37,675 bases of DNA from Bacteroidota bacterium (GTDB taxonomy: Bacteria > Bacteroidota > Bacteroidia > UBA7662): positions 1 to 37,675 of the forward strand of contig VGFN01000004.1 of NCBI GenBank assembly GCA_016868875.1. Direction: 5' to 3'. This document shows, one piece after another, positions 16,411-34,008 of the stretch. The position numbers and the translations under genes were made by a program. Every line of letters begins with the position of its first letter. Within the stretch, counting starts at the first letter, position 1. Under the pieces are notes generated by a model. The model had not been told where the DNA came from, searched no databases, and saw nothing but the letters and a program-made list of their open reading frames with translations.

Positions 16411-17075
16411 GCGACGTATTGGTTCAAAGTCCCGCCGAAAAAAAGCCCCTTCTCGGCAAAAAAGAGAGGAAACTCATCACCGACCCTTTGTCGGACAACA
16501 ATCCGGTGACCATACAGGTTTTGGGGATCTGTTCGGCTTTGGCCGTTACGACTCAAATGAAACCCACCATGGTTATGGCTTTGTCGGTCACGGCGGTGGT
16601 TGCCTTATCCAATTTGGTGATATCGCTCATGAGGAATGCCATTCCGCCTAGAATTCGAATCATCGTCCAACTGACGGTCGTGTCCGTTTTGGTTATTTTG
16701 GTGGACCAGATTCTCAAGGCCTACATGTACGATATCAGCAAACAGCTTTCGGTTTTTGTCGGTTTGATTATCACCAACTGCATTGTGATGGGTCGCCTTG
16801 AGGCTTATGCCATGGGTAACAAACCTTTTCCATCGTTGTTGGATGGTTTAGGGAATGGATTTGGTTACGGAGCGGTCATCCTTACGGTGGCTTTCTTTCG
16901 TGAATTGTTGGGTAGTGGCAAGCTTTTTGGCTTCAAAGTCATTCCTGACGCTGTATACGAAGCCGGCTATGTCAACAACGGGTTGATGATGATTCCTGCA
17001 GGAGCCTTGTTCGTGGTCGCCTGTTATATCTGGGTTCAAAGAAGTTTTGCTAAACATTTGGAGGAAAAAGAATGA
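16407..17075 (+). CDS. nqrD: Na(+)-translocating NADH:quinone reductase subunit D
   Basis: Start [13 protein letters not shown] via ATGA overlap with the nqrC stop; [32 protein letters not shown]. Confidence 0.97.
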
Positions 17076-17704
17076 GCACCTTATTTCTGGCCGCGGATTT
17101 GGTATCCGTTTTTGTTCGGTCGATTTTTATCGACAACATGATTTTTGCTTACTTTCTGGGCATGTGTTCCTATTTGGCCGTTTCCAAAAATGTCAAAACG
17201 GCCTTGGGCCTTGGTGTGGCGGTTGTCTTTGTATTGACTATTACCGTTCCCCTGAATTGGCTACTTTTGAACAAGGTTTTGAAGGAAGGGGCCCTGGCTT
17301 GGATTAGTCCGTCCTTGGCCAAGGTTGACCTGAGTTTTTTGGCCTTCATTATGTTTATTGCAACCATTGCATCCATGACGCAATTGGTTGAAATGTTGGT
17401 CGAAAAACTTTCTCCTGAATTGTACGGGGCCTTGGGGATTTTTCTTCCTCTGATAGCGGTGAATTGTTCCATTTTGGGGGGATCCCTGTTTATGCAAGAA
17501 AGAGATTATGAATTGGCCGAAGCAGCGGTCTTTGGCTTAGGTTCAGGTGTAGGTTGGTTAATTGCGATTGTTGCAATCGCCGCTATTCGAATGAGACTGC
17601 GTTATTCGGATGTCCCAGCTCCTTTGCGTGGGTTGGGTATAACATTTATCATTACAGGCTTAATGGGCATCGCATTTATGAGCTTTTTGGGTATTACGCT
17701 TTAA
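17072..17704 (+). CDS. nqrE: Na(+)-translocating NADH:quinone reductase subunit E
   Basis: [32 protein letters not shown] and [21 protein letters not shown] overlap with nqrD. Confidence 0.97.
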
Positions 17705-17716
17705 TTCTATACGACC

Positions 17717-19036
17717 ATGTTAACCGGGGCTACCTTATCCATCATTTTTTATTCCATCCTGGCTTTTTCCGGGGTCATACTGTTGCTGGTTTTTGTCCTG
17801 ATGTATGCGCAGGCCAAATTGGTCAACAGCGGGGATGTCCAAATTATTGTCAACGGAGATACGGCGAATCCCATGAAGGTGGCGGCGGGGTCGACCCTGC
17901 TCAGCACCTTGTCGGAACGTAAATTGTTTTTGCCATCTGCCTGCGGTGGTGGTGGAACCTGCGCCATGTGCAAATGCCAAATTCTGGAAGGCGGGGGCGA
18001 TGTCTTGCCTACCGAAAAAGGGCATTTGAACCGACGTGAACAAGCCGAGCATTGGCGTTTGGCCTGCCAGGTCAAGGTCAAGAATGACATGAAGATTCAG
18101 ATTCCCGAAGAAATTTTTGGAATCAAAAAATGGGAGTGCGAAGTGGTCTCCAATTACAACGTGGCCACCTTCATCAAAGAATTCACCGTCAAACTGCCCG
18201 AAGGCGAGAATTTACATTTTGAGGCCGGGGGGTATATCCAGGTGGATGTACCTGCTTGCACCGTTGATTTCAAAAACATCGATATCGCTCCATCGCCCGA
18301 TGATCCTGCAGGGCCGGAAAAGTTCAAGGAAGACTGGGACAAATTCAAGCTTTGGGATCTCAAAATGGTCAATCCCGAGCCCATATTCCGTGCCTATTCC
18401 ATGGCCAACCACCCCGCCGAAGGAAACATCATCAAGCTGAACATTCGTATTGCGACCCCCCCCTGGGATAGGGCCAGCAATGCCTGGATGAAAGTGAACC
18501 CCGGGGTTTGTTCGTCTTTTGTTTTTAATTGCAAACCGGGGGATAAGGTCACCATTTCAGGACCTTACGGGGAGTTCTTTATCAAAGATACCCAGAAAGA
18601 AATGGTCTATGTAGGCGGTGGCGCCGGAATGGCTCCGCTGCGTGCTCACATTTTTCACCTCTTTCATACCCTCAAAACAGGCCGTAAGGTTTCGTATTGG
18701 TACGGGGGTCGCTCCAAGCGGGAGTTGTTTTATGTGGACGAGTTTCGTGCCATCGAAAAAGAGTTCCCCAATTTTCGTTTTCATGTCGTCCTTTCGGAGC
18801 CTCTGCCCGAGGATCATTGGAAGGTATGCCAGGGCTTGGACGATCGGGAAGGGGATGGGTTTTTGGGCTTTGTGCACCAGTCATTCATTGACAATTACCT
18901 CAGCAAGCACAAGGAACCGGAAGAAATCGAATTTTATTTCTGCGGTCCTCCTATGATGAATGCAGCCGTGTTGAAGATGTGCGATGATTGGGGTATACCG
19001 AAGGAACACGTCGCTTTTGATGATTTTGGGGGTTAG
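17717..19036 (+). CDS. nqrF: Na(+)-translocating NADH:quinone reductase subunit F
   Basis: 2Fe-2S motif [16 protein letters not shown]...[22 protein letters not shown] site; [16 protein letters not shown] site. Confidence 0.97.
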
Positions 19037-20341: not shown

Positions 20342-22672
20342 ATGCGGTATGTATCCAGGGTTTTATGTTCGGGTGGCTTCTGGGCCATTTTTTTTCTACT
20401 TTATGGGTTGAGTCCTGGGTTGCAAGCCCAAAATTCAGGAACCATACGAGGAACGGTCATGGACAAAAGCAGCGGGGAACCCATTCTTTTTACGAATGTT
20501 TTTCTTGCAGGGACGACCATAGGGGCCAGTACCGATGTCAATGGATTTTTTACCATCAAGAATATCCCTCCAGGGAATTATGTTTTGATGAGCACCTATT
20601 TGGGTTACGATACGGCCCGGATTTCCATAAAAATCACCGCGGGTGCGACGCTCAATTATCGTTTGCAATTGTCCAAATCCTCGATTGGTCTCCAAGAGGT
20701 CGAAGTCTTGGGAGCCAAGCAAGAACAGCTGACCAACACCCGAGTTTCCGTGGAGACCGTCACGCCGAAACAAATCACGCAAGTGGTATCGGTAGGGGGG
20801 GAGGCTGATATCGCACAGTACTTACAAGTCCTTCCGGGAGTGGTCTTTACTGGCGATCAAGGTGGTCAATTGTATATTCGGGGTGGCTCTCCCGTGATGA
20901 ACAAAGTTTTGCTGGATGGGATGCTGCTGTATAATCCTTTTCATTCCATTGGACTTTATTCGGTTTTTGAAACGGACCTCATCAAAAACGCCGAGGTATA
21001 TACCGGCGCGTACAATTCGAATCATGGAGGGCGCATTTCGGCAGTCATGGACGTAACCACCCGTGATGGTAACCAAAAACAGCTGAGTGGTAAGCTAGGG
21101 GTTAGTCCCTTCCTGAGCAGATTGGTCTTGGAAGGCCCCCTTTGGCAGCCCAAGAGTCCTCAGCAGCTTGCCCCTACTTTTATTTTCAGCGCCAAGGGTT
21201 CCTACCTCGATCAAACCTCCAAAGCCCTGTATGCCTATGCTGGACCTCAGGGTTTGCCCTTTTCCTTTTTGGATGTGTATGGCAAAGCCACGTTCAAGGC
21301 AAACAGCGGTTCGAAGCTTTCTATGTTTGGATTTAACATGACCGACAAAGCCAATTTCAGGGGAATTGCCGAGGTTGATTGGGTATCGACCGGAGCAGGC
21401 ACACAGTTTGTGCTCATTCCTGAAGGTGCTGGCAATACCATATCTGGAAATCTAGGCTATTCTAATTTTGAATCTGGTCAACGCGAAGCGGACGGACGAC
21501 CAAGGCGCTCGGCCATCACCGGATTCAACGGCACGGTTTCGGTAACCCAGTACCTTAATTCCGGTCAGGCTAACTTTGGGTTCGATATGGTGGGTCTAAA
21601 TACCGATTTTAACTTTACCAATTCAACGGGTCAAATCATCCGGCAGCAAGAAAGCACCACGGAGCTTGCGGTTTTTGGCAAGTACAATTTGTTGTTTGAC
21701 AATTGGGTAGTGGAACCTGGACTTCGGGCCCATTATTATTCGAGCCTCACCGAGATGTCTTTGGAACCTCGATTCAGTGCCAAGTACAACGCAAGGCCTG
21801 ATTTGCGATTCAAGGTCGCTGGCGGCAAATACTCTCAAAATTTAATTTCGGCGACATCAGACAGGGATGTGGTGAATCTTTTTCTTGGCTTTCTATCAGG
21901 CCCGGATAATCTTCCCAAAACCTTTGATGGTGAGCCGGTGACCTCAAGGCTTCAGAAAGCCAATCATTTGGTGGGTGGGGTAGAGATTGATCTGGGGCCC
22001 AGGGTGGAGATCAATGCGGAAACGTATATCAAACAATTTACCCAGCTGTCCAACATTAACCGTGATAAGATTTTTGACGATATTGAAGGGAATTTTGGAA
22101 AGCCGGATGTCCTCAAAAAGGACTTCATCATCGAGCGGGGTAGGGCCTACGGTTTTGATTTCCGCGTCAAATACGATGTCAAAAGGTTTTACCTATGGAC
22201 CACCTACAGCTGGACTTATGTGGATCGCTTTGATGGAATACGCACCTACAATCCTGTTTTTGATCGTCGCCATAACATCAATGTGGTCAGCACCTATACG
22301 TTTGGAAAACAATTGGAATGGGAGGTTTCAGGTCGTTGGAACTTCGGTTCGGGATTTCCTTTTACGCAAACCCAGGGCTTTTATCCTGACTTGAATTTTG
22401 GAGGTGGTGCTGGTACAGATTATATCAATCAAGGGGGTGCCTTGGGGGTTTTGTATGCCGGATTTAACCAAGGCCGTTTGCCAACCTACCATCGTTTGGA
22501 TTTGGCATTGCGCTACCGCAAGGAATGGAATGATCGACTTTCCACGGATCTTAATTTCAGTCTTACGAATGCGTACGATCGTCGAAATATTTTCTATTTT
22601 GATCGAATTCGCTACAGCAGGGTCGATCAATTGCCGATTTTGCCGGCTTTAGGTCTAGTGCTTAGCTTTTAA
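20342..22672 (+). CDS. TonB-dependent receptor with carboxypeptidase-regulatory-like N-terminal domain
   Basis: Signal peptide; GTIRGTVMDKSSGEPILFTNVFLAGTTIGASTDVNGFFTIKNIPPGNY; plug QVLPGVVFTGDQGGQLYIRGGSPVMNKVLLDGM; C-terminal barrel ending LGLVLSF. Confidence 0.93.
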   Translation: MRYVSRVLCSGGFWAIFFLLYGLSPGLQAQNSGTIRGTVMDKSSGEPILFTNVFLAGTTIGASTDVNGFFTIKNIPPGNYVLMSTYLGYDTARISIKITAGATLNYRLQLSKSSIGLQEVEVLGAKQEQLTNTRVSVETVTPKQITQVVSVGGEADIAQYLQVLPGVVFTGDQGGQLYIRGGSPVMNKVLLDGMLLYNPFHSIGLYSVFETDLIKNAEVYTGAYNSNHGGRISAVMDVTTRDGNQKQLSGKLGVSPFLSRLVLEGPLWQPKSPQQLAPTFIFSAKGSYLDQTSKALYAYAGPQGLPFSFLDVYGKATFKANSGSKLSMFGFNMTDKANFRGIAEVDWVSTGAGTQFVLIPEGAGNTISGNLGYSNFESGQREADGRPRRSAITGFNGTVSVTQYLNSGQANFGFDMVGLNTDFNFTNSTGQIIRQQESTTELAVFGKYNLLFDNWVVEPGLRAHYYSSLTEMSLEPRFSAKYNARPDLRFKVAGGKYSQNLISATSDRDVVNLFLGFLSGPDNLPKTFDGEPVTSRLQKANHLVGGVEIDLGPRVEINAETYIKQFTQLSNINRDKIFDDIEGNFGKPDVLKKDFIIERGRAYGFDFRVKYDVKRFYLWTTYSWTYVDRFDGIRTYNPVFDRRHNINVVSTYTFGKQLEWEVSGRWNFGSGFPFTQTQGFYPDLNFGGGAGTDYINQGGALGVLYAGFNQGRLPTYHRLDLALRYRKEWNDRLSTDLNFSLTNAYDRRNIFYFDRIRYSRVDQLPILPALGLVLSF

Positions 22673-22731: not shown

Positions 22732-25700
22732 ATGCCCAATAATCGAAACCTAAAAAGTTTAAAGAGGTTCAGTCTGTTGGGCTTTATTGCGATCCTGTTT
22801 TATAATTCATCAAATGCGCAGGGAATAATACCCATAAGTGTGCCTGAATTCCAGGGCACTTCTTGGACTGAATGGGCGAATAAGAGGGAATTTCATTCGG
22901 CAGATTTAGCGTTGCGATCTCTGCAAACGAATCTGATCTCCTTCCAAACTGCTAATTCTTGTTCTGAAGAAGACCTAAGATTGTTAGAGTGCGCCAAGGC
23001 TGCCTATCGCTTAGATCCTGAGGTCGAAGTTCTATTTCCAGCCTTCTTGAGAGATTTTCCTGAAAATTCTCGATTGCACCAATCCAAACTTATTTACGGT
23101 TTATATCTCATAAGGCAGAATCGTGAATTGGAGGCGATGCAAGTTTGGGACTCTTTGAATTGGTATCAACTCAATTTTTCAGAAGCCCAGCAATATCATT
23201 ATTTCAACGGGCAACTTAATTATTCGAGCGATACGATAAAGGCCCTTGAGCACTGGCTACAGGCGGCTAGTTCTCCCGGGGAATATCAAAATCATGCCAG
23301 GTTTTCTTTAATGGGTCACTATTTCCGTATGGGGAATTATGTCGAGACTCAAAGAAAATTAGATCTTTTGCAAGGCGATCCCCAATACGATACGCTATGT
23401 ATTTATCCAAGGCTTTTGTTAAGGGCATTAATGGGAGATACTTCTGCCGCATTATCTGCATTGAATTCATTAAGCGAGGGCTCGTTTCAAATTACGAAAA
23501 AGGAGATTTGTGTTTTAGGGATGAATTTGTCCTATGGAAGACTTGAGCCTAAATTATTTATTGGGTATTTGAATAAGGCGCTTGATTATGGATATCAGGC
23601 TCATTCAGCGGATACGTTACGTTTGGCTCAAATGTACAGCTTGTTGGGTGTTTGGGATACAGTAGCTCAATTATTGCAAAGAGTTGAATTCTGGCCGGAT
23701 TCTTTAATTTCTCTTGGCTATTATACTCAAGGCCATGCGTGGCTAGCCTTGGGCTTGGAGGAAAAATCAGATCGATATTTGGCCAAGGCCAGAATTTCAT
23801 TTCAAAAGGTTACTGAATTAGAGGTTAACGGGTCATTACGGGAAAGTGCTTTTTACAATTATGCTAAAATATGTTACGATATTGGTGAGGCCCCGGCTAA
23901 TTTTAGGGTTCTTGGTTCTTTTTTACTTCAGTACCCGGGCAGTATTTACCGTGAAGAAGTTAGCCAATGCCTAAGTGATTTGGCAATGAGGGCTCATCAT
24001 TATCTAGAGTCTTTAGGAATTCTTAGAGGGGTCTCTAATCAAACGCCCAGGGTTCAGGCTATTCTTCAGAAGCTATATTATCAGCAGGGTGTGACTTTCT
24101 TTAATCAAAAAAGATATGTCGATGCATCAAGCTATTTGGATTCTTCCCTTCTGTATCAAGAAGACTCATCTGTTCGTGCCGCAACATTTTTTTGGAAATC
24201 CGAATTGTATCACCGTGTTGGCGAGTACAATCAGGCCTTTATATGGATGAAGAATTTTTTGGATTTTGGTTGTTTTAATCTTGACTTAAGGCTGCTGGGT
24301 TGCACCCCTTTTGCGGCAAATTATCAATTGGGACAATTGGCATTTAGGTTAGAGCGTCATAATCAGGCCGTAAGATACATGAAGGAGGCAATTCAAAAGG
24401 CTGAATTAATGAATGCTCGAAATGAAATTGAAACGGCGATGTTCAGGGACGCTCAAATGCGTTTGGGTGATGCCTTTCTTCGTGACGGTTTAATTGATTT
24501 GGCCATCAATCAATTTCAATCGTGTATCTTAGATTCCGGTCGTGGAGATGGAAAAGATTATGCCTATTATCAACTGGCGATTTCGTTTGGTATTCAAAAA
24601 AATGTTCCCACAAAGTGTAAAAAGCTTATTGATTTAATTCAAGAATTTCCAAGTTCTGACTACAGAATATATGCATTTTTGGAACTGGCTACTACCTATT
24701 ATCAAGAATCTAATTTTGATTCTTCAGATTATTACATTCGTGCAATTGAATCTGAATTTCCAAATCATCGTCTAACATTTATTGCACTAAATCTTAGGGG
24801 CTCTATTTTTATGGAACAAGGCATTGACTCTTCAGCTATGTCTGTTTTTGGTGATGTAATCCAAAGAGCGGCTGGCTTACCAGAGGCCAAAGATGCATTG
24901 TTTGAATTAAGACAATTATGCATTAAAACTTCCCAGCCTCAACGTTATTTGGAGATTGTGGGTAAAAGTGGACTGCTGGCATTGCAAGATGATCCTATGG
25001 ATTCTATTTTGTTTGAAACGGCTCAGTACAGCATGGAGTCTGGGAAGTTTTTTGAGGCTTTGGCTACATTAACGCAATATTTAAAGGAATATCCCACAGG
25101 TTCTTTCAAGGCAAATGCTTTGTTTACCCGTTCCATAGCCGCCTCAAAAGTGGGAGATATCGAAATGCAGATTTCTGATTTGGAGACCCTGATTCAAATG
25201 CCAGAGAATTTGTTTACAGAAAGAGCCTTGACCGTTTTGGCGGGAGTGTATTCGGATAAGGCCTTGTTAATTAATGCCTCATCAGTTTATTTACGAACTC
25301 TGCAAGGGAATTATTCTCAAACGTCTCGAAACAATGCAGCATTAGGTTTGATTAGGGTCTCTTCCCAAATGGAGCTTTGGAGTCTAGTGGATTCTGTTGG
25401 TAATATTTATGTAAAAACATTGGGCGCCGGACAGAATTACCAAAATGAAATTTCTTGGTATTTGGCCAATTCATTGCGTTTTCAGGGAAAAACCAAAATT
25501 GCACGTAAGGCATTGAAAACAATTGCTGATTCTACCCGAACAGAGTGGGCGGCAAGGGCCTTGTATAATTTAGCAGAAATGGCATTTGAAGAAAAGAAAT
25601 ATTCGGAATCTCAGGATTTAATTTATGATCTTACGGATTTGTGGCCTCAGTATACTGAATGGTATGGCCGTGGCCTGCTCCTGTTGGCCGAGAATTTAAT

Positions 25701-25815
25701 AGTTCTTAAAGAAAAAGATCAAGCGATAGCCGTATTAAATAATCTCATTCAAGGCAGGGACGCTGATGCAATAAGTCGTTTAGCTGAAATGCGTTTAAAA
25801 GCCATTAGGCCATAA
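22732..25815 (+). CDS. large secreted tetratricopeptide-repeat-like protein of unknown function
   Basis: Signal peptide (FSLLGFIAILFYNSSNAQ); many TPR-like helical hairpins (e.g. AYYQLAISFG, YIRAIESEFPNHRLTFIALNLRGSIFMEQG, AARALYNLAEMAFEEKKYSESQDL). Confidence 0.8.
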   Translation: MPNNRNLKSLKRFSLLGFIAILFYNSSNAQGIIPISVPEFQGTSWTEWANKREFHSADLALRSLQTNLISFQTANSCSEEDLRLLECAKAAYRLDPEVEVLFPAFLRDFPENSRLHQSKLIYGLYLIRQNRELEAMQVWDSLNWYQLNFSEAQQYHYFNGQLNYSSDTIKALEHWLQAASSPGEYQNHARFSLMGHYFRMGNYVETQRKLDLLQGDPQYDTLCIYPRLLLRALMGDTSAALSALNSLSEGSFQITKKEICVLGMNLSYGRLEPKLFIGYLNKALDYGYQAHSADTLRLAQMYSLLGVWDTVAQLLQRVEFWPDSLISLGYYTQGHAWLALGLEEKSDRYLAKARISFQKVTELEVNGSLRESAFYNYAKICYDIGEAPANFRVLGSFLLQYPGSIYREEVSQCLSDLAMRAHHYLESLGILRGVSNQTPRVQAILQKLYYQQGVTFFNQKRYVDASSYLDSSLLYQEDSSVRAATFFWKSELYHRVGEYNQAFIWMKNFLDFGCFNLDLRLLGCTPFAANYQLGQLAFRLERHNQAVRYMKEAIQKAELMNARNEIETAMFRDAQMRLGDAFLRDGLIDLAINQFQSCILDSGRGDGKDYAYYQLAISFGIQKNVPTKCKKLIDLIQEFPSSDYRIYAFLELATTYYQESNFDSSDYYIRAIESEFPNHRLTFIALNLRGSIFMEQGIDSSAMSVFGDVIQRAAGLPEAKDALFELRQLCIKTSQPQRYLEIVGKSGLLALQDDPMDSILFETAQYSMESGKFFEALATLTQYLKEYPTGSFKANALFTRSIAASKVGDIEMQISDLETLIQMPENLFTERALTVLAGVYSDKALLINASSVYLRTLQGNYSQTSRNNAALGLIRVSSQMELWSLVDSVGNIYVKTLGAGQNYQNEISWYLANSLRFQGKTKIARKALKTIADSTRTEWAARALYNLAEMAFEEKKYSESQDLIYDLTDLWPQYTEWYGRGLLLLAENLIVLKEKDQAIAVLNNLIQGRDADAISRLAEMRLKAIRP

Positions 25816-25817
25816 TT

Positions 25818-27581
25818 ATGAAGGACAAGGCCTCCATACGCTGTTTTCTTTTGTGTTGCACCTTTGGCGTCTTATTATTTAACATTTCACTTTGTGCGCA
25901 GGATAGCTCACTGATTGGTCAGCCTGTTCGAATTGTTAGATCTTATGACCCTAATTTGCCTGATTGGTTTAGGCATACATCGGACCCTATCCTTATTCAG
26001 GATCCTATTAGTCGAATGCCTCAAAATTACCGTTCTGATTCTATGGTTATGAAGCTTCCTCCCTCCAAAGAAAGGCTTTTTGAGTTTAAATCTTTATCAG
26101 AGGCCAGCGTTCAGGATTTGGCTTCAAGTCGTTTGTTTTTGTCTTTGGGAGGCAACCCGGGTAGTCATTACAATTTTACATCATCTATTTTTGGTCCGTT
26201 CGAAGTTTGGGGTCAACAAGTTTTGGGTTTTGGATCAATTGCCGGAAATTTTGGTCGTCCAAACGGGAATTCAATATCAGATTCGGTAAGAAACTTGTTG
26301 GTATGGAACCCTCAGTTTTTTCTAAACTGCAAACCCAAACGCAGCAACTGGGATTTAGAGCTGGATGGGGGACTGAGAAGTACGGGAACACGGGGTGGAT
26401 CGGATACAAAGAATTTTGATTATCAATTTAACAATTTTCGATTTAGTCCACGTGCTACTTATAAATTCAACAGTTCAAACAGTGTAGGCTTAACTCAGGA
26501 CATTGTGATGGAGGGTTTTTTTACTCATTTTGTTGCATCAGGTGGTGGAATGGATCGTTTGGAACAATCTGCCTCAGAATGGTCGGGTAATGTGCATTAC
26601 GAAGCTTCATATTCTGGCGAAAGCCACGACATAGGGATTAAGTTAGGTTTGAACCGCGGTAGGTTGACATCGCACGAATTGGATAGTATAAATGGGAGAA
26701 GAGGTGCAATTTTCATTAAGCCTCATTGGGGTGGCGTATTCGGTAATTATCGTTTTAAGGTTGCCATGGATGTTGTTCGACAAGTGGAATATGGGAATGT
26801 TGACGATAAGGATATTAACTGGTTGTTCTTGCCTAATTTGAATTTTCAGTTTCGTCCTGTTCATTCCAAAATGATTTCAGGCAGGGACGCTTTTTTGTTG
26901 GAGTTAGGCCTAGGTTCTAGACTTTATCAGCCTTCGTTTTATCATTGGTCATCTCTGTACCCTACTTTGAGTGGGTGGGATAATTATCGAGCTTCCGTAC
27001 AGAAGGCAGAGTTTTTTGTGCGTGTTGAGCATGGGGGAAAGGGAAAGCCTGTCCAATGGCATCATCGTCTTGGAATAGGGATGTGGAATAACGCCAGGTT
27101 TTTTGGTATTGATTCATCCAGAGTGCTTGGGGTATCGGCCTTTACAATACCGGAGGCGACTCAGTTAATCCTAGAGACCAAAATGAATTGGATGGCTGGC
27201 GAATCGACGGTAATGTCATTGACGTGCGGGCTTCAGGGATTGGTTGGTCAACGTTCCTGGTTAGGTATGCCTGGCCTGCAACCGGGTTTTTGGGCTGGAA
27301 TTCAATATGAACGACTCCTGTTTAGGGGCTGGAAATTGGATGCTCATTCTGTAGTTTATGCGATTTCAAACAAGCGGTCTTCAGGTACACCATCAAAGGC
27401 AGATGCCCCCAGGGTTTTGCAATTCCCTTTAAATTTAGATTTGAGAATGTCAAAGCCTATTTCAAGGCATGCTGACCTTGCCTTGGCTTTTAGGCAAAGG
27501 GAGGCTTCCCTATGGATGCTTTGGGCCGAAGACTTATGGTGGGGTAAATTTTTTAATTTGGAATTGCGTTGGAAGATTTAA
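25818..27581 (+). CDS. predicted outer-membrane beta-barrel protein, function unknown
   Basis: Signal peptide (CFLLCCTFGVLLFNISLCAQ); alternating amphipathic strands across the body; C-terminal aromatic-rich strand WGKFFNLELRWKI; 2 bp after the TPR gene. Confidence 0.68.
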   Translation: MKDKASIRCFLLCCTFGVLLFNISLCAQDSSLIGQPVRIVRSYDPNLPDWFRHTSDPILIQDPISRMPQNYRSDSMVMKLPPSKERLFEFKSLSEASVQDLASSRLFLSLGGNPGSHYNFTSSIFGPFEVWGQQVLGFGSIAGNFGRPNGNSISDSVRNLLVWNPQFFLNCKPKRSNWDLELDGGLRSTGTRGGSDTKNFDYQFNNFRFSPRATYKFNSSNSVGLTQDIVMEGFFTHFVASGGGMDRLEQSASEWSGNVHYEASYSGESHDIGIKLGLNRGRLTSHELDSINGRRGAIFIKPHWGGVFGNYRFKVAMDVVRQVEYGNVDDKDINWLFLPNLNFQFRPVHSKMISGRDAFLLELGLGSRLYQPSFYHWSSLYPTLSGWDNYRASVQKAEFFVRVEHGGKGKPVQWHHRLGIGMWNNARFFGIDSSRVLGVSAFTIPEATQLILETKMNWMAGESTVMSLTCGLQGLVGQRSWLGMPGLQPGFWAGIQYERLLFRGWKLDAHSVVYAISNKRSSGTPSKADAPRVLQFPLNLDLRMSKPISRHADLALAFRQREASLWMLWAEDLWWGKFFNLELRWKI

Positions 27582-27594
27582 TGTATTTTTGGAT

Positions 27595-28554
27595 ATGAAT
27601 AACCTATCGGAATTTGACCTCAAAAGGCTTCGCTCGGTTCGGAAAACCGCTATCCTGAAGGGTTTTGGTTATATTCAATACAGGTTCCTTTCTGCCAAAT
27701 TTCAGACTGGAGCGTCTCGGTTCACATCTCCACGGTACGCATGGTTTTTTGTCCCTCAAGCGGATCCAAAGTATCCTGGTGCCAAAGTTTATAGTCTTTC
27801 AATGACCATGAACTTTGCCCTGCAGGAGGTGCTATCTACCCAAAGGCCTGTTTATTTGGAAGGTTGGGGCTTATTAACATACACAAGGGGTTCGATAGAG
27901 CTTACTCCAGATTCAGGCCCACTTTCACAGGATCACCCCCATGCTGGATGGCCTGAAATTAAACTTACGGCACCAAGTCGGAATATCCAAGCTGTTAAGG
28001 GCCGTGTACGGTTTGCCCCCCAGACCTTTTACCATAAATCACTCCAATTGGTCGGAGCATTCACATTCTTGATCCTTTTGTTGGGTATGAGATTTGGGTT
28101 AACGGTTGATGGAACGGATGATGCTGTGGCCTCGAAGTGGTCCCTGGCGGGGTTACCATCGGCTTTGCCTGTGATCAAGTCGTCTTATACGCCATCGATT
28201 TTATCCCCCGCTTTGCGAGCTGGCCTTAATACGGGTAAAGGGATTGGAATTTCGCCATTGGAGCGGGGGGAGGATGCTGACGCCGAGAAACAATTACCCA
28301 TGAATTTGGTAGTATTGGGGTTGTATTCCAACGAAGACTTGGCAATTCAAAATAGCTTACATTATAAGCAAAACGGGTATGAAACCATGGTTTTCGTCCG
28401 CAGGGTCTTTGGAGGGCGTGAGCTCTTTGCTATTGGAATTCCGTATAGAGGATTTGAGCCCTTGGTTTATCTCAAAGAAATTCAGAACAAACTATTACCT
28501 TACGCCTGGCTTCTGGAAAATGAAGCCATCTCCTCAGCGGTTGCTACGCCTTAA
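27595..28554 (+). CDS. single-pass membrane protein, probable divergent HU/CCDC81-like N-terminal domain plus C-terminal SPOR-like domain
   Basis: No signal peptide; FALQEVLSTQRPVYLEGWGLLTYTRGSIELTP resembles the HU-CCDC81 'IPGFGGF' region; TM LQLVGAFTFLILLLGMRFGLTV; C-terminal LVVLGLYSNEDLAIQNSLHYKQNGYETMVF...LFAIGIPYRGFEPLVYLKEIQ...AWLL resembles SPOR. Confidence 0.55.
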   Translation: MNNLSEFDLKRLRSVRKTAILKGFGYIQYRFLSAKFQTGASRFTSPRYAWFFVPQADPKYPGAKVYSLSMTMNFALQEVLSTQRPVYLEGWGLLTYTRGSIELTPDSGPLSQDHPHAGWPEIKLTAPSRNIQAVKGRVRFAPQTFYHKSLQLVGAFTFLILLLGMRFGLTVDGTDDAVASKWSLAGLPSALPVIKSSYTPSILSPALRAGLNTGKGIGISPLERGEDADAEKQLPMNLVVLGLYSNEDLAIQNSLHYKQNGYETMVFVRRVFGGRELFAIGIPYRGFEPLVYLKEIQNKLLPYAWLLENEAISSAVATP

Positions 28555-28557
28555 AGC

Positions 28558-30720
28558 ATGGGATTCCAAAATCCTTCGGCCTTGTGGGGATTGGCCCTGT
28601 TGGCCGTGCCTTTATATATTCATTTTTTTGGATTTAGGTTACGTCGCAAGGCCTATTTCACAAGGCTAGATTGGTTGTTGCAACAACAAATACCTGTACA
28701 ACAACGAGAACGCTTGTTTCGATATTTGTTGCTGGCTACCAGAATTTTAGCTGTTTTGATGCTGATAGCGGCTTTGGCAGGGCCTACGTCCTTGCCCTCG
28801 TCCCTGGATTCCCTCCATGGCGCTGGATCTCGTTGCATGATTTACGTGGATAACAGCCGGGGTATGGCCATGGAAGGAAGTGGAGGGCCCTTGCTCGAGC
28901 AGGCCAAATCATCGGCCCGTCGTTTGATTCAAAATGCCAAGGCCGATACTCGCTTTGTGTTGATTTCCAACCAAAGCCGACCGTTGCACGGGGGTTGGCT
29001 TCATAAGGATAGAGCCTTGGACCTCTTGGATCAAATTCAGGTAAGCAATCAAAACAAGAGCCTCTCGTCAGTGGCCTTGCAAATGGATCGAAGATTGGAG
29101 CAGGAAGGTTTAGGGTTCGAGAAGGAAGTTTCCCTTTGGCTTTTTTCGGATTTCAAGAAAGGATCTATGGAGGGTAGCTATTGGCGTACGCGTTCCAAAC
29201 GGCTGGCCAATAACAGTTCCAATACTCCGCTGAATCTTGTTCCATGCCGCCCTTTGACGGCCTTCAATGCGGCTGTGGATTCGGCATGGTTGATGGAGCC
29301 GTTTTTTAGGCCTGGCATCCGTAACCGCATGGTTGTTCGAACCCGCACCTACGGGGAATGGCCGCAAGGATTGAATATTTCACTGGAATTGCTTATGGCC
29401 GGGCAGCGTAAGTCGCTGGCCACCTTGCAGGGGCCGGAATCTGCGAATTCCGCCTCATCCCTGCGTTTGGACACCCTGGATTTTACGGTTCCCAAGGATG
29501 CAATGGGTTTGGTGGAGCTGCTGATCAATGACCCGTATTTTGCCTACGATAATCGATATTTTTTCTCCAATGTTGTCCAAAACTCTGTTACAGTTTTGCA
29601 TGGATCCGGCGCTGGGCACAATTCTTTTCTTCGTTCGGTATGGGCCACCGATACCTTGTTTGAAGTCCAATATAGCCGTCATCAGGATTGGGCCAGGATC
29701 AATTTGGACTCCTTCTCTTTGGTCTTGTTGGAAATTTCGGAACCATTGCAAGCAGGGCATACCGCTGCCCTCGCCAATTGGGTACGTGATGGTGGCGGCC
29801 ATTTGTTCCTTATTCCTGTGGATGAAGAATCCGTCGAATCGCTAAACAAGTTGGCCCAAGTTTTTGGACCTAGCCTCAAGGCTGCTCCATGGCGAAAAGC
29901 CAAAGTGCGAATGGCCAACTTAGATCTTGGAAATGACTTTTTGGGAACAGTTCTCGCTCGCAAACCTGAGGCTGCAGCGATGCCTACGGTAGAAGGTTAT
30001 TTTCCATGGCAGGTGCAAGCCGGGGATGAGGTTTTGCTAAAGCTGGAGAGTGGTGAAGCAATTTTGAAGCGCATGGCTTTCGGGCAGGGCATGGTTTATG
30101 CGATGGCGGTCCCTGCGGAACAGCGTTTTACGGAATGGGTTCGTCATGATTTGTTTTTGCCGGTTTTCTACCGAACCGCATTAGGCTCTGTTCGTTCCGC
30201 AAATCTGACCGGATCCTTGGGTGGCCAGGCCTCCTGGTCCTTACCCCTGCTGGCAACAGATGCGGGTTCCTTGGATTGGATGCTGCAAGCCAAGGATTTG
30301 GATGAAATGGGCAAGGCCGCTCAAACCAACGGAACGGCAAGTTTAGAGGAAAGCGATGAAGAGGCCCAGGCCACCATCCGTCCCGAGGTTAGGGTTGTGA
30401 ACGGTAGAGCATGGATACGCTTATACGATACCGAGGTTCAACCCGGGTTCTATGCCCTTATTCGCCAAGCAGGTGAGCCAACGAATACCTTTTTGGCCAT
30501 CAATTTGGATCCCAAAGAGTCGGATATTGTACCGATGAGCGATAAAGAACTTCTGGCAATCGATCCAAATTTTAGGCTCTCCTTGGGCAATAGGCCAGAT
30601 CTTCAACAGGGGCTTCAACAGGGTTTCCTTGCCGGAGATGGTTTGATGAGGTTGTTCTTGGTGGCTTGCTTGGTATTTTTGGGCTTGGAAGCGGTGTTGC
30701 TATGGCAACGCAAAGCATGA
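28558..30720 (+). CDS. BatA domain / VWA-like membrane protein
   Basis: N-terminal BatA signature (MGFQNPSALWGLALLAVPLYIHFFGFRLRRKAYFTRLDWL...LLLATRILAVLMLIAALAGP), MIYVDNSRGMAMEG VWA-like strand, C-terminal TM FLVACLVFLGLEAVLLWQRKA. Confidence 0.85.
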   Translation: MGFQNPSALWGLALLAVPLYIHFFGFRLRRKAYFTRLDWLLQQQIPVQQRERLFRYLLLATRILAVLMLIAALAGPTSLPSSLDSLHGAGSRCMIYVDNSRGMAMEGSGGPLLEQAKSSARRLIQNAKADTRFVLISNQSRPLHGGWLHKDRALDLLDQIQVSNQNKSLSSVALQMDRRLEQEGLGFEKEVSLWLFSDFKKGSMEGSYWRTRSKRLANNSSNTPLNLVPCRPLTAFNAAVDSAWLMEPFFRPGIRNRMVVRTRTYGEWPQGLNISLELLMAGQRKSLATLQGPESANSASSLRLDTLDFTVPKDAMGLVELLINDPYFAYDNRYFFSNVVQNSVTVLHGSGAGHNSFLRSVWATDTLFEVQYSRHQDWARINLDSFSLVLLEISEPLQAGHTAALANWVRDGGGHLFLIPVDEESVESLNKLAQVFGPSLKAAPWRKAKVRMANLDLGNDFLGTVLARKPEAAAMPTVEGYFPWQVQAGDEVLLKLESGEAILKRMAFGQGMVYAMAVPAEQRFTEWVRHDLFLPVFYRTALGSVRSANLTGSLGGQASWSLPLLATDAGSLDWMLQAKDLDEMGKAAQTNGTASLEESDEEAQATIRPEVRVVNGRAWIRLYDTEVQPGFYALIRQAGEPTNTFLAINLDPKESDIVPMSDKELLAIDPNFRLSLGNRPDLQQGLQQGFLAGDGLMRLFLVACLVFLGLEAVLLWQRKA

Positions 30721-32114
30721 AAATTCTCCTTCGCAAAGCCAAACTACACGGCAATATGCCGAAAAGCCTGAGTAAAGCCCGGGCGGGTTCAGCTTCGTTG
30801 GATTTTTTGATCGAGGATGGGGAATTGACCAAGGCTGGGCCTGACCTCAAGGTCCGAGGAGCAGTGGAAGTGGTCTCCAATAATTTGCATTTATCCCGAG
30901 GATTTACGGACTTGTACGCTCATTTCGGCACTCCGGGCTACGAAAACCGTGAAACCCTGCATTCGGGTTCCATGGCCGCGGTGGCAGGTGGCTTTACCAG
31001 GGTCCTGCTACAGCCGGATACTTTGCCCGTTTTGCAGACCGGTGGTGAAATTGCTTCTTTGAGGGCCGCCTCGGCTGGTTTACCGGTAGAAATTCAAATC
31101 GCCGCCGCACTGACCGAAGACCTGAACGGACAGGAGCTCACCGACATGATGGACCTCAAAGTGCACGGGGCTGCAGCCTTTTCCAATGCCAATGCTGCTA
31201 TAGAATCCGCGCATTCAATGTTGCGAATTCTTCAATACGGTTCGATGACCGGTCTGCCCCTGATGTGTGTGCCGTATGACAAGGGAATAAGCCAGGGTGG
31301 CCAAATGCACGAATCAGCTCTTTCCTTGCAATGGGGACTGCGTGGTATTCCTGCGGTTGCGGAAACTTTACGCTTGGACCGGGATTTGGCCTTATTGGAT
31401 TACCTTGGACAAGAGAAAGCCCGTTTGCCCGTACATATTCATTGGTCCAAAATTTCTTGCGTCGGTTCCCTGGATCGCATACGAACCGCTCAAAGCAAGG
31501 GTAGTTCGGTGACTTGCGGTGTTGCGGCTCATCATTTGCTTTCGACAGCGGAGGATTTATCTGGATTCCGTAGCGAGTTCAAAGTCTTCCCCCCGTTGCG
31601 TTCTGAAGAAGACCGCCTTGCCCTGGTTCAAGGAGTCTTAGACGGTACCATAACCAATATTTGTTCGGATCATCAACCGGGGGATTTCGAGTCCAAGGAC
31701 AATGAATTTCCCCATGCCGAATTTGGGCAAGCCGGTATTCAATATGCTTTTGTGGCCGCTTTGGAAGCTGGTTTGGCGTTGCCCGTTCGTTCCAGATCCT
31801 TGTGGGTAAACAGGGTGGTCCAAGCATTCACTCTTGGTCCCGAGCAAGTCCTTGGGATTCGCGAATCTGTCGAGGATGAATGGCAAAACGGCAGGGCCAA
31901 CGGATGGGTCCTCTTTGACCCCACCTTGAACTTGGGGTCTATCAAAGGAACCAAAGCACGAAACTCCGCGCTCACTACGGATCTGGTATCGAATCTTGCC
32001 CACTCTAAAGGTGTTGCCCAAGCGTATCGAAACCGTCGCTTTGCGGCAGGGATTCTTGCCGTTGCGGGCCGGGACGGTTCATGGTTTTCTTCATCCTTGC
32101 AAGGGCTTCGTTGA
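30717..32114 (+). CDS. dihydroorotase-like amidohydrolase, probably non-catalytic
   Basis: LSRGFTDLYAHFGTPGYENRETLHSGSMAAVAGGFTRVLLQPDT, LRGIPAVAETLRLDRDLALL, VTCGVAAHHLL, ICSDHQPGDFESK; ATGA overlap with the BatA-like gene. Confidence 0.85.
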   Translation: MKILLRKAKLHGNMPKSLSKARAGSASLDFLIEDGELTKAGPDLKVRGAVEVVSNNLHLSRGFTDLYAHFGTPGYENRETLHSGSMAAVAGGFTRVLLQPDTLPVLQTGGEIASLRAASAGLPVEIQIAAALTEDLNGQELTDMMDLKVHGAAAFSNANAAIESAHSMLRILQYGSMTGLPLMCVPYDKGISQGGQMHESALSLQWGLRGIPAVAETLRLDRDLALLDYLGQEKARLPVHIHWSKISCVGSLDRIRTAQSKGSSVTCGVAAHHLLSTAEDLSGFRSEFKVFPPLRSEEDRLALVQGVLDGTITNICSDHQPGDFESKDNEFPHAEFGQAGIQYAFVAALEAGLALPVRSRSLWVNRVVQAFTLGPEQVLGIRESVEDEWQNGRANGWVLFDPTLNLGSIKGTKARNSALTTDLVSNLAHSKGVAQAYRNRRFAAGILAVAGRDGSWFSSSLQGLR

Positions 32115-32118
32115 TTCT

Positions 32119-32940
32119 ATGAGCCAAGAACTTTCCCCTCGCCAACGTTTGTTGAACGCCTTGGGTGGATTAATGTTAGGGAACCGCCTATCATGGGCCA
32201 AAGCCCAGGGATTACCTTTGAATCTAGCGACTCAGAACGTGGACCTCCAAGGTTGGCATGACCTTCAAGGGGAACTTGTTCCGCTTTTGTTTGGGGAAGG
32301 GGAAGATTCGGGTCCCCAAGCTGCGATAGCCTCCTTGCGTCAATTGGAACAATGGCTAGCAAGAGCTGATCGTAAGGAATTCCTAAGAGGGAGTTCCAAG
32401 GATTTTTTGGTTGATTTGTTGATCCTGCATTCCTTTTCTGGGGAGGATGCAGGGGAGGTGGGGGATGAACAGGCCTGGGATGCTTTTGAGGATGCATGCA
32501 TGGGCAAAGGGACAGATTTGCTTCAAGTCGTGCATTACCTGGACGAATGCCTTGCGGATTCCGTTCATCCTGAAATGGAGGACTTTATTGAATCTTTTGT
32601 GGTAAGCCCTGATCTCGAGGATCAAGATAATTTGCTTGCTTACGAAGAAGTTCTCGAATCAAGGGATTTAGTGGATACCCCTTTGCACGAAATGATACAG
32701 GAGTGCAGGTTACTTGCTGTTGAGTCTGCGGTGGAGCCTATTTTCACAGGCTTGTTTTGTTTTCTGCGCCAGGGTCCCTCGGCGCAAGAGTTACTGGAAA
32801 TCATGTGGAAATTTCCGGACGATTTAAGTGATGTGTTACCGATGCTTTGTTGTGTCCAGGCCTATTTTTACGGCAATGAAGGCTCAGACCACGGGCCATC
32901 GAAGGCTAGTTCCTTAACCATCGCCAGCCTTTGCTCATGA
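32119..32940 (+). CDS. hypothetical protein
   Basis: Open frame from MSQELSPRQRLLNALGGLMLG; 4 bp after dihydroorotase, ATGA overlap with the next gene; acidic, no signal peptide or recognisable motif. Confidence 0.75.
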   Translation: MSQELSPRQRLLNALGGLMLGNRLSWAKAQGLPLNLATQNVDLQGWHDLQGELVPLLFGEGEDSGPQAAIASLRQLEQWLARADRKEFLRGSSKDFLVDLLILHSFSGEDAGEVGDEQAWDAFEDACMGKGTDLLQVVHYLDECLADSVHPEMEDFIESFVVSPDLEDQDNLLAYEEVLESRDLVDTPLHEMIQECRLLAVESAVEPIFTGLFCFLRQGPSAQELLEIMWKFPDDLSDVLPMLCCVQAYFYGNEGSDHGPSKASSLTIASLCS

Positions 32941-33434
32941 TCAAGTTGATTTTGCGCATTGGGTTGCTGAATACCCTTACCGCCACGGTACTATCCGCCC
33001 TTGTTTACAGGTGGACCCCTGTTCATCCCCTGGGTCAGTTTCGACTCTTGCTTGGGGTGGTGACGCTGGCGTGGTTGATTGTTGGGATGAACGCATTGCG
33101 CAAAGAGGTCTTTGCGGGTGTTCTCAAGGTAACCTACGGCCTCCTGTTCAGCGTTGGTGTCGGTTTGGTTTCAGCGATTTCTTTTGGTCTTGTGGCATGG
33201 CTGCTTTGCGCTTGGGTTCCCGGTTTTTGGCAGGCCTACCTCGAGGATCAAGTCAGGAATCTGGAACAAGCCTCAGGGATTCTGAATACCAATTACAGCG
33301 CAGGCACCTTGGACAAATTGCGCAGGGAAATTCAAGCCCAAAGCCCTTTGCCCTTGATGCTGAGGATTAGTTTCTTTCGATTTCTTTGGCACCTTTTGGC
33401 CGGATTATGGGTGGGGATTTATTTTCGTAAATAA
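32937..33434 (+). CDS. DUF4199-like integral membrane protein
   Basis: MIKLILRIGLLNTL..., several TM helices and a soluble loop LEDQVRNLEQASGILN before a final TM; typical DUF4199 layout. Confidence 0.65.
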   Translation: MIKLILRIGLLNTLTATVLSALVYRWTPVHPLGQFRLLLGVVTLAWLIVGMNALRKEVFAGVLKVTYGLLFSVGVGLVSAISFGLVAWLLCAWVPGFWQAYLEDQVRNLEQASGILNTNYSAGTLDKLRREIQAQSPLPLMLRISFFRFLWHLLAGLWVGIYFRK

Positions 33435-33477
33435 CTCGATTTCTTGACCCCTTGAACATTTAACCATTAAAGAGCCT

Positions 33478-34008
33478 ATGAATCTCCCCGTAATTTTTCG
33501 ATTTGGTGCCTTATTGGGGATGGTCAGCATTGCATCCCTTTTGATGACGTACATGATCGACCTCACATGGATGGTTTCCGGTTGGAATTCTTTGATTTCC
33601 ATTGTGATGGTTTTTGCGGCCATGATCATGGCCTGCTTGGAGGACAGGCGAATTCAGGGTGGACCTTACGATTACGGTAGAGCAGTCGTCACCGCGGCCT
33701 GTACGGGGGTCATTGGATCGTTGATTGGTATCGCCTTTACAGGTTTTTTGTACAATGTTATTGACCCTAATCTGCATTTACAGGTCAAAGAAATAATGAT
33801 GACCAAAATGCAGACCTCTTTGGATTCTTTTGGGATGGACGATGCGGCTGCCGAAAAAGCCCTTGAAGCATTTGAGCAAAGAGATTTCAAACAAAATTTT
33901 CGCGCCTTGGGTACCGCGGCCTTGTTGTCTTTGCTTATGAATTTATTGTTTGGATTGCTTGTTGGGATTTTTGTGCGTCGCAAACCTGATAACCCCTTTG
34001 AGGCATGA
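33478..34008 (+). CDS. DUF4199 domain-containing membrane protein
   Basis: FGALLGMVSIASLLMTYMIDL, GGPYDYGRAVVTAACTGVIGSLIGIAFTGFLYNVIDPNLHLQVKEIMMTKMQ, C-terminal TM. Confidence 0.8.
   Translation: MNLPVIFRFGALLGMVSIASLLMTYMIDLTWMVSGWNSLISIVMVFAAMIMACLEDRRIQGGPYDYGRAVVTAACTGVIGSLIGIAFTGFLYNVIDPNLHLQVKEIMMTKMQTSLDSFGMDDAAAEKALEAFEQRDFKQNFRALGTAALLSLLMNLLFGLLVGIFVRRKPDNPFEA

Follow-up and report, generated by a model that had tools for sequence, protein, structure and literature searches.

In many Gram-negative bacteria the constriction of the outer membrane is coordinated by the Tol-Pal system, composed of TolQ, TolR, TolA, TolB, Pal and CpoB. According to a 2025 survey, no tol-pal locus is identifiable in Bacteroidetes, and PorE was proposed instead as the tethering system of these bacteria (PMC12204202). 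In Myxococcus, the Agl-Glt machinery includes GltD, GltG, a TolQR-type motor and outer-membrane barrels (PMC3169522, PMC5349195).

The locus described here was found in a window of 37,675 nucleotides, i.e. the whole stretch of DNA that was analysed; its features are listed below.

20342..22672, + strand: X, plug-containing TonB-dependent receptor, ending 59 bp before T (CarbopepD_reg_2 1e-21, Plug 3e-10)
22732..25815, + strand: T, secreted periplasmic TPR solenoid protein, 1027 aa (TPR Pfam matches, relatives, held-out profile)
25818..27581, + strand: B, predicted plug-less outer-membrane barrel of the TonB-dependent transporter (TBDT) type, 587 aa (AlphaFold, Foldseek, profiles)
25920..25952, + strand: TonB-box-like motif of B, residues 35-45, QPVRIVRSYDP (conserved alignment columns)
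26130..27575, + strand: predicted barrel of B, residues ~105-586 (AlphaFold2/DSSP strands)
27595..28554, + strand: H, divergent HU-CCDC81-like/TM/SPOR-like inner-membrane protein, 319 aa, ATG at 27595 (relatives at the same position, alignment)
28297..28518, + strand: SPOR-like C-terminal domain of H, residues ~235-308 (alignment with Pfam-positive SPOR regions of relatives)
28558..30720, + strand: A, BatA/VWA-like protein, 720 aa, judged to be outside the module (PF07584; dihydroorotase-like neighbour)

The ORF coordinates confirm the run of four co-directional genes at 22732-30720 on the + strand, with intergenic gaps of 2, 13 and 3 bp, that had been reported in a preliminary description. 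Gene families, linkage, fold class and motif were computed; linkage, motifs and fold suggest that T, B and H form a module, which is present across nearly all Bacteroidota checked and which, judging from sequences and models, is most likely a machine of the Tol/Ton/Agl class, with a transporter-type barrel that lacks the plug and a TPR protein of giant size.

The TPR protein and its barrel

TPR repeats were recognised by Pfam throughout T (TPR_6, 1e-13; TPR_16, 5e-12), as expected from the preliminary description, and the signal peptides claimed for the first two products can be read in the sequences, ending in ..NAQ in T and in ..CAQ in B. The held-out profile of T gave an E of 1e-145 and homologues are present in 58 of 60 relatives. 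The TPR models of CpoB/YbgF and BamD match T in all the relatives analysed (48/48); the window copy is below the CpoB/YbgF equivalog cut-off (TIGR02795 score 79.3 vs 90.1), and T, which is built of repeats, has roughly four times the size of CpoB. A virulence-related TPR protein of P. gingivalis, TprA, is found in the literature; whether it is the same protein as T could not be established, and this is not claimed.

The gene-neighbourhood survey bore out the association between TPR and barrel genes: B directly follows T in 49 of 50 loci of the same class and in 78 of 80 further loci, the latter gathered with the TPR alignment as query. With B as the starting point, 30 of 40 loci have T as the gene directly upstream; the other ten, without an adjoining T, all belong to one family, and a full-length T is found elsewhere in those genomes. 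Thus, T and B are a near-universal pair, conserved far beyond close relatives.

No Pfam or NCBIfam model matched the window B at E <= 1. Its AlphaFold model (pTM 0.72) displays about 22 strands by DSSP, and the closest fold identified by Foldseek is BtuB (E 1e-13); the model of a homologue (pLDDT 88.9) also matches BtuB, with an E of 5e-19 and a TM of 0.63. The family profile matches TonB-dependent receptors (4.6e-8, C-terminal sequence), the held-out profile has an E of 1e-8, and the family was found in every listed genome of the same class with E <= 6e-61. The Plug domain is absent, since Pfam Plug matched 0 of 45 B proteins, and both the window B and its homologue are modelled with an unstructured N-terminal tail (about 75 residues). 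These data support the outer-membrane barrel previously proposed for the second gene, and models and profiles agree in predicting that it is a TBDT-type barrel rather than a generic one.

The mature protein contains, about 8 residues past the predicted signal cleavage site, a short conserved motif; in an alignment of 113 B proteins its columns have 100% occupancy and a conserved V/I-x-I/V-V pattern, and in relatives from other classes it reads LPEFVITG or ELPDFVITG. The motif is enriched compared to shuffled sequences (0.585 vs 0.208, for a short motif, with a loose pattern set by the authors and relatedness ignored) and is considered a putative TonB box.

The matches of T to the BamD model, found in 48/48 members, could also indicate a role in outer-membrane assembly, with T as a BamD/BepA-like TPR chaperone and B as a barrel accessory to the Bacteroidota BAM, which does contain an extra barrel (PMC12611786), or to another insertion machine. 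However, B differs from this extra barrel, BamG, which is of the FadL type with 14 strands, and the main text of the F. johnsoniae BAM paper mentions neither TPR nor tetratricopeptide (PMC12611786); moreover, the linkage to motor genes would be left unexplained, and an assembly factor is therefore regarded as improbable.

The SPOR family protein and the flanking genes

H has one hydrophobic stretch (residues ~149-169), corresponding to the single TM indicated for the third product. Among relatives at the same gene position, Pfam recognised SPOR in 7 of 17 and HU-CCDC81_bac_1 and HU-CCDC81_bac_2 in 6 of 17 each; because these proteins carry such domains, the window H was assigned to the HU/SPOR family. 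The held-out profile recovers it with 4e-5 without its genus, and with only 0.16 without its family. Thus, the HU-like/TM/SPOR-like assignment stands, through the relatives, as regards an inner-membrane-anchored SPOR family; for the window copy itself, which was matched by neither the HU nor the SPOR model and has no Pfam or NCBIfam match at E <= 1, it is tentative and comes from gene position, alignment and the profile held out by genus. The H family appears to belong to the inner-membrane SPOR proteins, often provided with a predicted cytosolic HU/CCDC81 domain; a chromosome-partition role was reportedly predicted for the Bacteroidetes members in a 2017 paper on the HU/CCDC81 superfamily. 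Some H proteins (loci L126 and L127) are formed by TM and SPOR only, without HU, so that the link to the nucleoid through the HU-like domain, as initially suggested, is not a constant one.

The N-terminus of A is a BatA double-TM region (PF07584, 2e-15; TIGR02226, 4e-12), in line with the BatA-type TMs already noticed in the fourth product, while the VWA match is weak (E 0.24). A BatA-like gene is present in 56 of 60 relatives, and in 27 of 30 loci it is accompanied by a dihydroorotase-like gene; its proximity to T-B-H was observed exclusively in the family of the window, and its direct adjacency to H exclusively in the genus of the window. Given the linkage to the dihydroorotase-like gene and the restricted proximity to T-B-H, A was ruled out as a member of the module. 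A four-gene complex extending from the barrel to the nucleoid through the TPR, SPOR and BatA-like proteins, as first proposed, would agree with how closely the four genes are packed in the window's genus; the distribution of the BatA-like gene and the H proteins lacking HU make it very improbable. An envelope-spanning assembly was retained as the best reading for T, B and H. On the other side of the locus, several families of the order have homologues of X upstream of T, and X is a possible order-level associate of the module.

The motor cluster and the proposed mechanism

In many orders and in other classes the operon continues as H-ExbB/TolQ-ExbD/TolR-TonB_C; examples of B-H-Q-R-TonB_C operons are loci L117-L120, L122, L124-L129, L135, L138-L141, L144 and L146. 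Q, R or the transducer lie <=6 genes from B in 33 of 167 loci, and Pfam identified TonB_C in 21 of 31 transducer members. In the lineage of the window, and in the majority of the Flavobacteriales/Bacteroidales-type loci seen, the motor genes are not linked to T-B-H; indeed, the window's genome contains a Q-R1-R2-folC cluster on another contig (C7), beside gyrA. Its motor proteins match MotA_ExbB (2e-30) and ExbD (4e-27) in Pfam; no Pfam match to TonB_C was obtained for its own transducer, but the family profile does match (7e-21). R1 has an invariant Asp in its trans-membrane segment. The SxxxH motif of the transducer TM, as in TonB, occurs in only 12 of 42 proteins, and in two of these 12 it is outside the TM. 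Most relatives possess a second ExbB paralogue, which in the loci read is part of an ExbB-x-ExbD-ExbD cluster of its own; for this reason the motor of the module is considered separate. The ExbB/ExbD/TonB-type cluster likely provides the inner-membrane partners of T-B-H, as sequence and gene order suggest, and it could serve other TonB-dependent receptors too. The preliminary description included neither these likely partners nor the likely identity of B as a plug-less TBDT-type barrel.

T, B and H are thus, on balance, probably the periplasmic, outer-membrane and wall-binding parts of a PMF-driven trans-envelope machine, ancestral to Bacteroidota and with a Tol-Pal-like role. We infer that they would form a complex in which force is exerted on B. 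The motor would be the ExbB/TolQ-ExbD/TolR pair; the transducer, which has a single TM and a TonB_C domain, would pass through the wall and bind the N-terminal TonB-box-like strand of B, and would then pull the barrel, whose flexible tail of about 75 residues would stand in place of the plug. T may act as a large scaffold, as CpoB does for TolA, connecting B, the transducer or wall enzymes, and H, anchored in the inner membrane, would bind peptidoglycan through SPOR. The likely task would be to coordinate the two membranes and the wall; it may perhaps be carried out at the septum, the SPOR domain being the one pointer to this site. The fuller proposal of an unrecognised phylum-ancestral motor doing the job of Tol-Pal, with a TonB-like transducer that pulls the plug-less barrel, a TPR scaffold that holds it and a SPOR protein that places it, is tentative, being rated somewhat below even.

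The TBDT fold, the TonB-box-like motif and the linked TonB_C transducer would also be compatible with a channel powered by TonB and dedicated to transport or export, through whose plug-less lumen a housekeeping substrate, be it lipid, protein or fragments of the wall, could pass, with T as its periplasmic substrate receptor or chaperone; export by a TonB-dependent barrel has a precedent in Oar and PopC of Myxococcus (PMC6434023). However, a pore of 22 strands without a plug would have to be gated, and the phylum-wide occurrence without substrate-specific neighbours, together with the linkage to an inner-membrane SPOR protein, fits an envelope role better, so that a channel is considered unlikely. 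The Tol-Pal-like machine, if true, would imply that a TonB-dependent transporter fold lost its plug and became a mechanical handle instead of an importer. The module is a concrete candidate, with named parts, for the Tol-Pal role in Bacteroidota, a phylum that abounds in the gut and in numerous aquatic environments.

Comparison with known envelope machines

The module and Tol-Pal share a TolQ/TolR-type motor and a single-TM transducer with a TonB/TolA-type C-terminal domain, linked to the module in relatives and unlinked in the window's own genome, as well as a periplasmic TPR protein, T, matching the CpoB model in parts, and a predicted wall-binding (SPOR) component. Differently from Tol-Pal, the outer-membrane partner is here a predicted TBDT-type barrel, T has about 1000 aa and is not a lipoprotein in the window, and an inner-membrane SPOR/HU protein is added. 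Neither TolB nor Pal was recognised among the neighbours of module and motor genes read by eye in the loci; the downstream genes considered as TolB/Pal in L130, L133 and L134 resemble UDP-glucose dehydrogenase and proteins of flagellar type. PorE has also been proposed to fill the Tol-Pal gap in Bacteroidetes; however, it is one multidomain lipoprotein, and barrel and motor genes are absent.

The TonB_C transducer, the TBDT-fold barrel and its TonB-box-like N-terminus are in common with ExbB-ExbD-TonB and its TonB-dependent transporters, whereas B has no plug and a fixed pairing with a giant TPR protein, and the module motor is apart from the second ExbB-x-ExbD-ExbD cluster of the same genomes.

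Finally, the Agl-Glt/Nfs core of Myxococcus also contains a large secreted TPR protein (GltD, 1191 aa), a TonB_C transducer (GltG), a TolQR-type motor and outer-membrane barrels with possible TonB boxes. This likeness in the types of parts could suggest a lateral force machine at the cell surface, not involved in division; however, the module is near-universal in the phylum, and gliding of F. johnsoniae is attributed to the T9SS/Gld machinery, making a surface machine slightly less probable still than an assembly factor. Compared by its part types with the Myxococcus core, the module is distinguished by the SPOR/HU protein, the predicted 22-strand TBDT-type barrel and the phylum-wide spread.

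The four-gene run and the conserved TPR-barrel pair

The window is contig C4 of the source assembly (1.4 Mb, 88% complete, 199 contigs). As noted in the preliminary description, it carries four adjacent, co-directional genes in a tight arrangement, with ORF coordinates leaving gaps of 2 bp (T-B), 13 bp (B-H) and 3 bp (H-A):

22732-25815, + strand, T, TPR gene
25818-27581, + strand, B, barrel gene
27595-28554, + strand, H, HU/TM/SPOR-like gene
28558-30720, + strand, A, BatA-like gene

The T product is indeed a secreted protein, a TPR solenoid 1027 aa long; homologues are present in 58/60 relatives (42 families), usually as a single copy of 1000-1100 aa. The CpoB/YbgF and BamD TPR models are both matched by all 48 aligned members; the window protein scores 79.3 against a CpoB cut-off of 90.1, so its likeness to CpoB is limited to parts.

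The pairing of T with B is conserved among relatives. Seen from T, the next gene is B in 49/50 loci and in 78 of 80 further ones, which were retrieved via T and are uninformative on its presence; the two misses are contigs that end inside T or soon after it. Seen from B, T lies immediately upstream in 30/40 loci; the other ten belong to one family, whose genomes encode a full-length T elsewhere. B is found in every same-class genome listed (E <= 6e-61), while the tally of 211/248 across the phylum is too high, because in other classes some matches are full length and the rest C-terminal only.

A had been proposed as a possible fourth component, and this assignment does not hold. Homologues occur in 56/60 relatives, and a dihydroorotase-like gene (a name, like gyrB and gyrA below, given from by-eye reading of the sequence) adjoins A in 27/30 loci, one of the three misses being a contig that ends inside A. 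Proximity to T-B-H is seen only in the window's family, and direct adjacency to H only in its genus; the position of A in the window is synteny rather than membership. The dihydroorotase-like protein following A (30666-32114) appears to have YAH at the usual metal-binding HxH, and has no Pfam match at E <= 1e-3. Further downstream, an adjacent DUF4199 gene pair (32931-34008) precedes glycosyltransferases.

The barrel and its N-terminal segment

Window B has no match in Pfam or NCBIfam; its relatives form one family, whose held-out profiles retrieve it with the genus (E 1e-8) or the family (9e-7) excluded. The family profile matches the C-terminal strands of TonB-dependent receptors in sequence (4.6e-8). 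A barrel, as first proposed, is predicted in both AlphaFold models: that of window B (45 sequences, pTM 0.72) has about 22 strands, as tallied from DSSP output and not from coordinates, with BtuB and OprC as the closest solved structures (E 1e-13); that of the homologue L145 (100 sequences, pLDDT 88.9, pTM 0.81) matches BtuB at E 5e-19 and TM 0.63.

Both models leave the roughly 75 residues ahead of the barrel unstructured, and this tail is probably too short to form a plug; none of 45 members matches the Plug domain. The mature N-terminus carries a fully occupied motif, roughly V/I-x-I/V-V/I-K/R-x-Y/F-x-P (113 non-redundant members), and in some other classes the same segment reads LPEFVITG or ELPDFVITG, resembling TonB boxes. 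A loose TonB-box pattern, self-chosen and applied regardless of relatedness, occurs in 58.5% of these segments versus 20.8% of shuffles (shuffle maximum 33%).

The gene 59 bp upstream of T (20342-22672) encodes a true TonB-dependent receptor, which has both CarboxypepD_reg and Plug domains; its homologues precede T in several of the order's families. Farther upstream, a membrane subunit of the Rnf/Nqr type and an Fe-S/FAD protein resembling NqrF (17072-19036) suggest a sodium-pumping NADH dehydrogenase operon.

The HU/TM/SPOR-like protein and the motor genes

The architecture described for H is recovered in relatives, where SPOR is matched in 7/17 family members and each HU-CCDC81 model in 6/17; its HU part is inconstant, the L126 and L127 proteins being TM-SPOR only. 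Window H is divergent (held-out profile 4e-5 with the genus excluded, 0.16 with the family excluded), and its C-terminus aligns to the SPOR domains of relatives.

In other classes and several same-class orders the operon extends into genes for ExbB/TolQ, ExbD/TolR and a single-TM protein, TonB_C being matched by 21/31 members of the last family. In the window's genome the corresponding genes, Q, R1 and R2, form a cluster with folC (named through a profile match with a folC-type gene of a relative) at L193, contig C7, 456-6420, divergent from a gyrA-like gene; Q matches MotA_ExbB, and R1 matches ExbD, with an invariant TM aspartate. Most relatives have a second ExbB paralogue, in an ExbB-x-ExbD-ExbD cluster in the loci read.

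In many loci gyrB follows T-B instead of the motor genes (within six genes in 42/167); gyrase genes thus adjoin both module halves. In one family (L130, L133, L134) a TonB_C-type transducer directly follows H, without ExbB/ExbD genes.

A candidate trans-envelope machine

In the simplest reading, T, B and H belong to a trans-envelope machine driven by the PMF, as outer parts of it. B would be contacted at its N-terminal motif by the TonB-like transducer, and H would attach to peptidoglycan through SPOR; T may serve as a scaffold, like CpoB with TolA, which bind each other in E. coli (PMC7391070). No description of the module was found in the open-access papers searched, which include few subscription journals; it may be known elsewhere.

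According to a 2025 analysis, Bacteroidetes have no identifiable tol-pal locus, and PorE was put forward (PMC12204202); the T-B-H-motor module is a further candidate, whether in place of PorE or alongside it. Its kinds of parts match those described for the Agl-Glt core and for Tol-Pal, and on the basis of these parts its role may be Tol-Pal-like, possibly septal.
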